Below the pieces are notes generated by a model. The model was not told the DNA's origin and did not search any database. It worked only from the letters and a program-made list of their open reading frames with translations. From Snodgrassella alvi wkB2 (GTDB lineage Bacteria > Pseudomonadota > Gammaproteobacteria > Burkholderiales > Neisseriaceae): 64,000 nt of DNA. The DNA lies in contig NZ_CP007446.1 in assembly GCF_000600005.1 (NCBI RefSeq), positions 832,894 through 896,893 of the forward strand. Direction: 5' to 3'. Below, one piece after another: positions 20,716 to 63,337 of this stretch; within the stretch, counting starts at the first letter, position 1, and every line of letters starts with the position of its first letter. Position numbers and translations under genes: made by a program.

Positions 20716-21525
20716 ATGAGTATATTTGCAGTATTGGGTAATCCTGTAGCGCATAGTCGTTCTCCGCAAATTCATCAGGCTTTTGCTGCTCAGCACGGTC
20801 AAAAGTTAATTTATGAGCGGCGTCTGATTGCTGTTGATGATTTTGCTGCACAAGCCAGAGAATTTTTTAAAGCTGGCGGAACCGGGGCTAATGTTACTGT
20901 GCCTTTTAAGCATGAGGCTTATATTCTGGCTAATGTGCTGACTGAACGGGCTAAAGCAGCAAAAGCTGTTAATACTTTATTCTGGCGCAACGGGCAGTTG
21001 CTGGGGGACAATACTGACGGTATCGGTCTGGTGCGGGCAATTGAAGAATTATTGTCTTTTTCTCTGAGTAATAAACATATATTACTGCTGGGAGCAGGTG
21101 GTGCAGCATGTGGTGTCATTCAGCCACTTTTACAGCAACTGCCGGCTTCACTGACCATTGCTAACCGCTCAGCAGAAAAAGCGCAGTTGCTTGCTCAGGA
21201 GCATAATGTAAACTGGTGCGCGGTAACGCAGATAAAACCAGAATATGATGTCATTATCAATGCTACCTCAGGTAGTTTACACGGGCAGAAATTACCTGTG
21301 TCTGTGCCAGTACTGGCCAGAGCGCAACTGGTTTACGATATGATGTATTCGGCAAAGCTCACCCCTTTTTTGCTTCAGGCTCATGAAGCAGGGTGCCGGC
21401 ATCTGGCTGATGGTCTTGGTATGCTGGTAGCGCAGGCAGCAGCCTCATATGCATTGTGGCATGGTTTTAATCCTGATATCCGGCCGGTAACCGAGCAGAT
21501 ACGTAAAGAAATGGAACAGTCATGA
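20716..21525 (+). CDS. aroE: Shikimate dehydrogenase (NADP+)
   Basis: Reduces 3-dehydroshikimate to shikimate in the aromatic amino acid pathway. 269 residues. Visible: GNPVAHSRSPQIH (substrate site), NVTVPFK with catalytic Lys65, NTDG, the nucleotide-binding GAGGAACGV, NRS (NADP phosphate contact) and GLGMLVAQAA near the C-terminus. AGAGGGGAG upstream gives a strong ribosome binding site. Stop and mtgA start overlap by ATGA, so the two are translationally coupled. Confidence 0.97.
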   Translation: MSIFAVLGNPVAHSRSPQIHQAFAAQHGQKLIYERRLIAVDDFAAQAREFFKAGGTGANVTVPFKHEAYILANVLTERAKAAKAVNTLFWRNGQLLGDNTDGIGLVRAIEELLSFSLSNKHILLLGAGGAACGVIQPLLQQLPASLTIANRSAEKAQLLAQEHNVNWCAVTQIKPEYDVIINATSGSLHGQKLPVSVPVLARAQLVYDMMYSAKLTPFLLQAHEAGCRHLADGLGMLVAQAAASYALWHGFNPDIRPVTEQIRKEMEQS

Positions 21526-61378: not shown

Positions 61379-63337
61379 ATGACTTATCAAGTATTGGCAC
61401 GAAAATGGCGACCAAAAAAGTTTGCCGATTTAGTAGGACAGGAGCATGTAGTCAGGGCGTTGTTAAATGCGCTTGATAAAGGACGTTTGCATCATGCTTA
61501 TATGCTTACGGGGACTCGGGGTGTAGGTAAAACCACCATTGCCCGTATTCTGGCCAAAAGCCTGAATTGCCAGCATACTGAACATGGTGAGCCATGTAAC
61601 CAATGTGATTCTTGTCGCCAGATTGATGCCGGCCGTTTTGTTGATGTGCTGGAAATTGATGCTGCTTCCAATACAGGAATTGATAATATCCGCGAAGTAC
61701 TCGAAAACGCACAATATGCGCCAACGATGGGGCAGTATAAAGTCTATATCATCGACGAAGTGCACATGTTGTCGAAAAGTGCTTTTAATGCCATGCTCAA
61801 AACTTTAGAAGAGCCGCCTGAACATGTGAAATTTATTCTGGCGACGACAGATCCGCAGAAAGTACCGATTACGGTTTTAAGCCGGTGTCTGCAATTTGTC
61901 TTGCGCAATCTGAATAGTACTCAGGTACATGATCATCTGGTTTATGTATTACAGCAGGAACAAATTGCTTATGAAGATCCGGCATTATGGCTGTTAGGCC
62001 GGGCTGCTGCCGGCTCAATGCGTGATGCACTCAGTTTGCTTGATCAGGCTATTGCCATTGGTTCAGGAAAGGTGACTGAATCTGATGTGCGGAATATGAT
62101 TGGTGCGGTTGATAAAAGTTATTTGTATGCGCTTTTGGAAGCCTTGGCTGTACGGGATGGTCAGGCATTACTGGCTAAAGCGGAGGAAATGGCCAGTTGC
62201 GCGGTAGGATTTGATAGTGCGTTAACTGAGCTGGCTCTGTTATTACAGCGTTTAACAATACTGCAATCTGTTCCGTCAGTCGGCGCTGATGATCCTGGGT
62301 ATGCGGCTTTAACCCGTTTTGCGGGTTTGTTTTCAGGAGAGCAGATTCAATTATATTATCAGTGTGTATTACGAGGTAAGGCAGATTTGCCGCTTGCTCC
62401 GGATGAGAAAGCCGGGTTTGTCATGACCTTATTGCGGATGCTTGCATTTGCACCTCTGGCTGCACTGAATGCACAACGTTTGCATGGACAAATCGACGGT
62501 ACACAGTTGCATAATGTGTCAGTAAATAATAAGCAGATGGATAATATACCAACTGTTTCTGAAGAAAATAGTCCAGTTTCAGTATCTGAAGCACTGTCAG
62601 AGACAGCATCTGATGCAACTACTGAAGTACCGGTAACATTAGAAACTGAAATAATCGAAAAAAAATCTTCGTCGATAACAGTTGCTGATAGCAAGATATT
62701 AAATGATTCTTCACCTGCTTTGCAGGAATCTCAGTCTGTAACGATTAGCGATGAGCCTCCGCCACCCTGGGAAACAGGTGTTGATGACATATCCTGCAGG
62801 GCTGTGAGTGTGTTTGAGTCTATAGAATCAGTCAATGCAAATGCGGTAGAAAAGTATGATGAAAATACGGATATATCCGCAGAAAAGCCCAGAGATGATC
62901 AGAATTTATCTCTGGTAAAAAAGGCTTTTCCGCCATTGACGGCAGAGAACTGGCCGGAAATTTTAACTATGCTGGCACATCGTCTCGGTGCAGTACAGTT
63001 GTTCAGTCAGCATACGGCGATTGTTGCTTATGATGAAAATAGTGGTGATTTAACTATTGCTCTGGCTGAGCAGGGTGAGCCGACAGCCAATCGTGAGTTA
63101 CTAAACCGGCTGGCTGAATCGTTGTCAGAAGTTTATCAACGGCCGATACATCTGCATACCTGTAGCTGGCAGGAACAGAGTATGCCGGAAACACCGCAAA
63201 TGCGTCAGCAGCGATTACATGCAGAACAACAGCAGCAGGCAAAGACAGTGTTAGAAGCCCAGCCCGCTGTAAAAATGCTGATGGAAACTTTTAATGCAGA
63301 ATGGATACCGGAAAGTTTACATCTGGATAAAGAATAA
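61379..63337 (+). CDS. dnaX: DNA polymerase III subunits gamma and tau
   Basis: 652 residues from the ATG at 61379 (homologs begin MTYQVLARKWRP; in-frame ATG at 61373 and TTG at 61367 are alternatives). Clamp-loader ATPase: Walker A GTRGVGKT (45-52), zinc cysteines C64, C73, C76, C79, DEVHMLS, sensor ATTDPQK, SRC box. Domain III ends near 370, then a variable Ser/Thr/Glu-rich linker and the tau C-terminus (DnaB/alpha binding). The linker carries an A8 run at codons 427-429 and an A AAA AAG heptamer at codons 513-515 that may produce a shorter gamma form. ybaB follows by 57 bases. Confidence 0.96.
   Translation: MTYQVLARKWRPKKFADLVGQEHVVRALLNALDKGRLHHAYMLTGTRGVGKTTIARILAKSLNCQHTEHGEPCNQCDSCRQIDAGRFVDVLEIDAASNTGIDNIREVLENAQYAPTMGQYKVYIIDEVHMLSKSAFNAMLKTLEEPPEHVKFILATTDPQKVPITVLSRCLQFVLRNLNSTQVHDHLVYVLQQEQIAYEDPALWLLGRAAAGSMRDALSLLDQAIAIGSGKVTESDVRNMIGAVDKSYLYALLEALAVRDGQALLAKAEEMASCAVGFDSALTELALLLQRLTILQSVPSVGADDPGYAALTRFAGLFSGEQIQLYYQCVLRGKADLPLAPDEKAGFVMTLLRMLAFAPLAALNAQRLHGQIDGTQLHNVSVNNKQMDNIPTVSEENSPVSVSEALSETASDATTEVPVTLETEIIEKKSSSITVADSKILNDSSPALQESQSVTISDEPPPPWETGVDDISCRAVSVFESIESVNANAVEKYDENTDISAEKPRDDQNLSLVKKAFPPLTAENWPEILTMLAHRLGAVQLFSQHTAIVAYDENSGDLTIALAEQGEPTANRELLNRLAESLSEVYQRPIHLHTCSWQEQSMPETPQMRQQRLHAEQQQQAKTVLEAQPAVKMLMETFNAEWIPESLHLDKE
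62658..62688 (+). promoter_or_regulatory. Candidate slippage site for gamma in dnaX (A8)
   Basis: Eight A at 62658-62665 in frame GAA AAA AAA TCT (codons 427-430). A -1 shift reads IFVDNSC then TGA at 62686-62688, giving a ~436-residue product; loss of one A in the transcript reaches TAA even sooner. The codon position equals that of the E. coli gamma shift (gamma is 431 residues). Confidence 0.5.

Follow-up and report, generated by a model that had tools for sequence, protein, structure and literature searches.

The dnaX gene of Snodgrassella alvi and its A-run

The DNA that we analysed is a stretch of 64,000 nucleotides from Snodgrassella alvi wkB2 (hereafter 'the window'), which lies within a single contig of 2,527,978 bases; its genus is coded g1. 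It carries a dnaX gene whose product consists of a clamp-loader core, a linker and the tau domain V (Table 1). The linker, which is hypervariable in an alignment of dnaX within the genus, contains a run of eight A's (A8) in codons 427–430, which read GAA AAA AAA TCT. An earlier, sequence-only reading had proposed that this run may direct the synthesis of a gamma-sized protein, and had placed it at the coordinates that we also find (62658–62665). The frames described in that reading are correct as well: a −1 event leads through seven codons (IFVDNSC) to the TGA that begins at 62686, and a transcript with one A fewer reaches a TAA within four codons (NLRR).

Addition of one A to the run gives a modelled product of 436 amino acids (47.8 kDa) and removal of one A gives 432 amino acids (47.4 kDa), and both are of the size that had been claimed for gamma; addition of two A's gives 433 amino acids. 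Stops lie seven codons on in the −1 frame and four codons on in the +1 frame, and equally near stops in both other frames are found at 24% of linker positions. A heptamer scan of the same gene identified two more in-frame A_AAA_AAG sequences, at codons 12 and 513; the one at codon 513 has no Shine-Dalgarno-like pairing upstream and a folding rank of 31%.

Table 1. Features of the dnaX locus and the lysine tRNA gene with anticodon CUU (positions are those of the window unless a genome and contig are named).
Feature	Position	Strand	Basis
dnaX, DNA polymerase III gamma/tau, 652 aa, ATG start	61379..63337	+	translation; NCBIfam and Pfam matches
Clamp-loader core, residues 1–359 (to end of Pfam domain III match)	61379..62455	+	PF13177, PF22608, PF12169
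Linker, residues 360–541, domain III to tau domain V	62456..63001	+	by difference from Pfam matches
Place matching the Neisseria-like A_AAA_AAG site (approximate), residues 380–392; without slippery heptamer	62516..62554	+	alignment; heptamer scan
A8 run; in-frame heptamer A_AAA_AAA at 62659–62665	62658..62665	+	direct reading
TAA in +1 frame after A8; product ends NLRR	62676..62678	+	direct reading
TGA in −1 frame after A8; product ends IFVDNSC	62686..62688	+	direct reading
Second linker A_AAA_AAG, in frame, codon 513	62917..62923	+	direct reading; heptamer scan
Tau domain V, residues 542–642; missing from any shifted product	63002..63304	+	Pfam PF12170
Lysine tRNA, anticodon CUU (L216)	G000:C1:1203156-1203228	minus	

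Frequency of A8 runs in the window and genome

Both strands of the window together contain 14 A8 matches, compared with 14.4 (sd 4.9) in shuffled sequences, and runs of exactly eight A's number 303 genome-wide (145 and 158 on the two strands). Among 52 ORFs picked mechanically from the window, seven sense-strand A8 runs were counted, versus 4.1 after shuffling of codon order or 5.9 in synonymous draws; six ORFs of the window besides dnaX, which start at 21522, 24449, 32578, 33708, 34175 and 59549, also have a sense A8. A bare A8 run is not commoner than chance. The probability of at least one A8 in the linker of the window's dnaX is 1.4% by codon-order shuffle and 33% when the protein is held fixed and synonymous codons are drawn. 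The window ORFs use AAA for 82% of their lysines and GAA for 84% of their glutamates, and four of seven [EKQ]KK tripeptides in them carry an A8.

Stimulatory elements and Rfam matches

Pairing to the anti-Shine-Dalgarno sequence was calculated 6–17 nt upstream of each site and folding over the 50 nt downstream, and both were ranked within the gene. The run has no Shine-Dalgarno motif in that upstream interval (pairing 0.0 kcal/mol, rank 100%) and weak downstream folding (−3.2 kcal/mol, rank 97%; z +0.62 in a shuffle test), as the sequence-only reading had judged on both counts. The dnaX gene of E. coli, used as a control, gave a pairing of −7.4 (rank 1.5%) and a folding of −18.7 (rank 9.5%). 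Its genuine hairpin has a z of −0.07 by the shuffle test, and a poor z by itself therefore does not exclude a signal. At 36 sites of the related genus g5 (described below), pairing has a median rank of 6%, with a strict motif in 21 of the 36; the median rank of folding is 42%, so that the hairpins of this genus are not outstanding. Upstream pairing is also 0.0 in those genomes of the family that have A9 or A11 runs. Because the A8 lacks stimulators, as they do, it would belong with transcriptional slippage if it is active, and to that extent the earlier preference for slippage over frameshifting holds.

Neither RF00382 nor RF01843 matched the window's dnaX at E values up to 10; the E. coli control scored 94.6 bits with RF00382. 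The Rfam search of the window's dnaX listed four matches, all to unrelated families and all below gathering scores, and RF01843 has one match at E 1.21 somewhere in the window's genome.

Relatives within the genus

We recovered dnaX from 12 of the 14 genomes of the genus, and the comparison is one among species, with one genome per species. None of the 11 other dnaX genes has an A-run of eight at the aligned place, and the conservation that the proposed signal called for is thus not found among these other species. Two of the 11 genes are damaged. One (L006) runs into a contig end, and the piece from the other end (L111) has a linker without Lys-Lys; since an A8 in this frame requires Lys-Lys, L006 is without the run. 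The other (L011) has a broken frame, and its linker, read in the other frame, is also without Lys-Lys. The break in this gene (L011/L112, genome G009 of g1) lies near codon 359, where a C-run is one C below expectation, and domain V is readable in another frame, through mutation or assembly error.

Two g1 dnaX genes have a long A-run at other places: codon 487, in the linker, for the A9 of L012 (genome G011), and the last codons for the A8 of L005. The linkers of ten g1 genes contain two runs of at least eight A's (the A8 of the window and the A9 of G011), versus 0.17 by codon-order shuffle or 0.83 by synonymous draws; cut or short ORFs (L006, L011 and L166–L169) are excluded from these linker counts by group. 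In a tree of dnaX cores, g1 is a clade (support 97) that groups with g6 and g11 (support 99).

Two g1 genomes, G002 and G006 (the latter 60% complete), gave no dnaX match. In G002 and in a g5 genome assembled as one contig of 2.8 Mb (G039), the DnaX search returned nothing better than weak matches to related proteins, despite completeness ratings of 97% and 100%, respectively. Assembly gaps, or stretches withheld from the data, may account for the missing DnaX in both.

dnaX signals across the family

The family set comprised 72 genomes with a completeness of 90% or more; dnaX was recovered from 70 of them, which together with the gene of G010 gives 71 genes. Heptamers were listed for the part of each gene after codon 340, and a site was labelled by one of four heptamers located 5 to 50 codons after the end of the core; other heptamers in that stretch, such as A_AAA_AAT in L009, were scored as none. 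A_AAA_AAG is present in 36 of the 40 dnaX genes of g5, at codons 381–391. A_AAA_AAA lies within an A9 in G070 and G073 and within an A11 in both g7 genomes, and C_CCA_AAR is found in all four g9 genomes as well as in G016, G072 and G018. None of the four site heptamers occurs in that stretch in the 12 g1 genomes and 11 others of the family. On the core tree, the distribution of site types needs ten changes. The comparison suggests, as far as the sequences tell, that the gamma signal of dnaX turns over fast within the family (A_AAA_AAG, A9, A11, C_CCA_AAR or none).

Genus g5 appears to be Neisseria-like, judging from its Rfam element and its uptake sequences. The element neisseria_FSE (RF01843) scores above cut-off in four g5 genomes (G025, G035, G040 and G056), and each match lies shortly downstream of a dnaX core match, which identifies the element as the dnaX signal. 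Relative to the place of the A8 in the window, the g5 signal is located about 40 codons upstream. Seven loci were looked at, from 80 (L031–L034 and L036–L038), and the named N. elongata dnaX among them (L031) has no slippery heptamer. RF00382 was above cut-off in none of the 72 family genomes under stricter filters. A keyword search of the open-access literature found no paper on neisseria_FSE.

The word GCCGTCTGAA, the DNA-uptake core, is present in 150 copies (both orientations) after the core in the 40 g5 dnaX genes and in none of the cores themselves. Words related to it accumulate in g9, g10 and g12.

An inverted dnaX layout in genus g9

The 0-frame dnaX ORF of all four g9 genomes (L166 in G069, L167 in G066, L168 in G067 and L169 in G068) is 377–381 residues long. 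Its stop follows C_CCA_AAA directly in three genomes and one codon later in G068. The heptamer occupies locus positions 1187–1193 in L166 and L167 and 1172–1178 in L169, and lies on the minus strand in L168. An overlapping −1 ORF of 217–389 codons follows it; against tau domain V this ORF scores below the Pfam cut-off in three of the four genomes and gives no match in L169. A stem of 14–15 base pairs begins 4 nt past the heptamer in L166–L168, and one of 7 pairs begins 6 nt past it in L169. These hairpins have z values of −3.2 to −5.0, with 0, 0, 0 and 1 of 200 shuffles folding equally well.

In g9, the sequence suggests that the 0-frame product is gamma and that tau requires a −1 shift at C_CCA_AAA; this genus is the strongest case among the apparent decoding tricks of the family. 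L169 groups with g7 (support 81), so that the inverted layout may have had one or two origins. Two-ORF dnaX genes have been described by Antonov et al. (2013, PMC3711429), where, in the part of the paper available, recoding is at poly-A and the Chlorobium chlorochromatii case has eight A's. In the genes described there, gamma is the 0-frame product and tau depends on recoding, unlike in the window, where tau is read in frame 0; g9 shares their layout but with C_CCA_AAA instead of poly-A. We found no report of a two-ORF dnaX layout with C_CCA_AAA by keyword search of the open-access literature.

A-runs in dnaX linkers of the order

We also counted runs of at least eight A's in 67 dnaX genes from other families of the order (L172–L199 and L252–L290; one count used 65 of the 67, omitting two with linkers under five codons). 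There are none in the cores, 12 in the linkers and two in the tails. The corresponding expectations are 1.1, 0.68 (∼0.7) and 1.5 when codon order is shuffled, and 0, 3.9 and 0.8 in synonymous draws. The 12 linker runs come from 11 families, and seven of the 12 genes have a G+C content of 63–70%. Such counts suggest that selection favours A-runs in the dnaX linkers of these outgroups. The enrichment is not general, because g5 has none in its 40 linkers, versus 0.5 (order shuffle) or 3.6 (synonymous).

Many of the outgroup linker runs read GAA AAA AAA ACT or GAA AAA AAA AAG. Two outgroup genes of another kind (L283 in G091 and L285 in G134; genus g30, family f19) encode 0-frame DnaX proteins of 441 and 459 residues that end before domain V, which comes next in the +1 frame (Pfam 1.9e-6, just under the cut-off, and 1.1e-8, over it). 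A G-run and GGAGAG are located near both stops, and the break may represent a shift, reinitiation or an error.

Lysine tRNA genes

Of the lysine tRNA genes in the window's genome, two have anticodon UUU and one has CUU. All 72 family genomes have the UUU pattern. The CUU pattern is present in 18 of the 72 (all 12 of g1, G016, both of g7 and three of the four of g9) and in none of the 41 g5 genomes. No CUU carrier of the family with dnaX data has A_AAA_AAG at the usual place. The A_AAA_AAG site was seen in g5 only and the independent pairs are few, so that this association is confounded and proves nothing: a link between CUU and loss of A_AAA_AAG is represented by three independent pairs on starred tree branches (sign test p = 1). 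Genera without CUU that are also without A_AAA_AAG oppose a simple CUU rule.

Discussion

The A8 of the window is probably not a programmed signal. On balance we favour the reading that it is an ordinary stretch of an A-rich linker, with no programmed gamma signal, and that dnaX is expressed mainly as full-length tau. The grounds are direct observations: the sequence itself, a frequency at chance level, absence of the run from the remaining 11 g1 dnaX genes (all from other species) and lack of stimulators. On these points the claim of a programmed gamma signal finds no support, although a comparison with other species does not refute it fully. The A8 would be Glu-Lys-Lys spelled with GAA and AAA, the codons that the genome prefers, within a fast-changing part of DnaX. 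Slipped transcripts would form at most a small share and give products of 432–436 residues, and gamma itself would in this species either not be made or be made otherwise, for example by proteolysis, which has been reported for Caulobacter crescentus. Against the ordinary-stretch reading stand the enrichment of linker A-runs in the order (12 versus 0.68 or 3.9) and in g1 (2 versus 0.17 or 0.83), and the 1.4% obtained in the order shuffles.

These two enrichments are the reason why we leave a minor share of belief for programmed transcriptional slippage, in which A's are gained or lost as the polymerase transcribes the A8 and normal translation of the resulting mRNAs gives a gamma of 432–436 residues, as reported for the A9 of Thermus; we regard this as unlikely. 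The concentration of A-runs in the order's linkers spans 11 families and includes genes of high G+C content, both other frames soon reach a stop, and translational stimulators are missing, as they are in the family members with A9 or A11 runs. The dnaX of Thermus thermophilus likewise has, in the accounts available in part, an in-frame A-run with near stops in both frames and two kinds of lysine tRNA; the available part of PMC5009743 gives two lysine tRNAs for that species, to be compared with the CUU gene beside two UUU genes in the window's genome. The T. thermophilus run, however, has nine A's and reported slippage, whereas that of the window has eight, is unconserved in the genus and is known from sequence alone. 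With E. coli RNA polymerase, detectable slippage required at least seven T's or eight A's, and slippage by deletion was not detected on the A-runs tested, according to the available part of PMC6260861. Eight A's is, by that partial source, the detection floor of this enzyme, and six further ORFs of the window have a run of that length in the sense direction.

Programmed −1 ribosomal frameshifting at A_AAA_AAA, giving gamma as at the A_AAA_AAG of E. coli, is very improbable. The heptamer is in the correct frame with a −1 stop seven codons on, but it has no internal Shine-Dalgarno sequence, weak folding downstream, no Rfam element in the gene and no conservation in the genus. The sequence-only reading had stressed that the run has the same codon position as the E. 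coli site. The numbers do agree closely (the E. coli A_AAA_AAG, annotated 'DnaX frameshifting element', starts at codon 428 of dnaX, in the linker, versus 427 in the window, with a −1 stop soon after in both), yet equal numbering is not homology, and we regard the match as coincidence, because the signal of the family lies about 40 codons upstream and the linker is hypervariable. The E. coli element (RF00382) combines A_AAA_AAG with Shine-Dalgarno-like pairing and a stem-loop, whereas in the window the heptamer is A_AAA_AAA, both stimulators are missing and RF00382 finds no match in the gene. With stimulators, the most efficient heptamers in E. coli are A_AAA_AAG, C_CCA_AAG and G_GGA_AAG, as given in the portion of PMC5009743 at hand. 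The Neisseria element (RF01843) belongs to the same gene and the same taxonomic family as the window; its A_AAA_AAG site is at codons 381–391, and the window has no slippery heptamer there. Phase variation, in which replication slippage at a mutational hot spot would create A7 and A9 alleles that toggle between tau and a truncated form, is hardly credible: coding homopolymers can vary in length, which is nothing specific to the window, but losing domain V from a replication gene would carry a high cost, a run of eight A's is short, and runs of equal length are as common elsewhere in the window.

We favour, then, an ordinary A-rich stretch. Keyword searches of the open-access literature found no paper joining dnaX with Snodgrassella, nor DnaX frameshifting with the betaproteobacterial clamp loader or with Kingella. 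A wider and distinctly doubtful idea is that, in this family, the lysine tRNA set decides the mode by which gamma is made, with lineages that have CUU losing A_AAA_AAG frameshifting and re-inventing the gamma/tau pair otherwise. Were it true, the re-inventions would be A11 slippage in g7 and the inverted C_CCA_AAA layout in g9, g1 would have young A-runs at new places (the A8 at codon 427, the A9 at codon 487 of G011), and the A8 of the window would be a slippage site soon after its birth.

Slippery-looking runs in A-rich linkers are easily mistaken for programmed sites, and equal codon numbers do not establish homology. Of more use is the comparison itself, in which one gene in one family displays several apparent decoding tricks. 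It raises the testable question of why bacteria have turned repeatedly to different decoding errors for making a short DnaX, and whether the lysine tRNA set decides which error is used.
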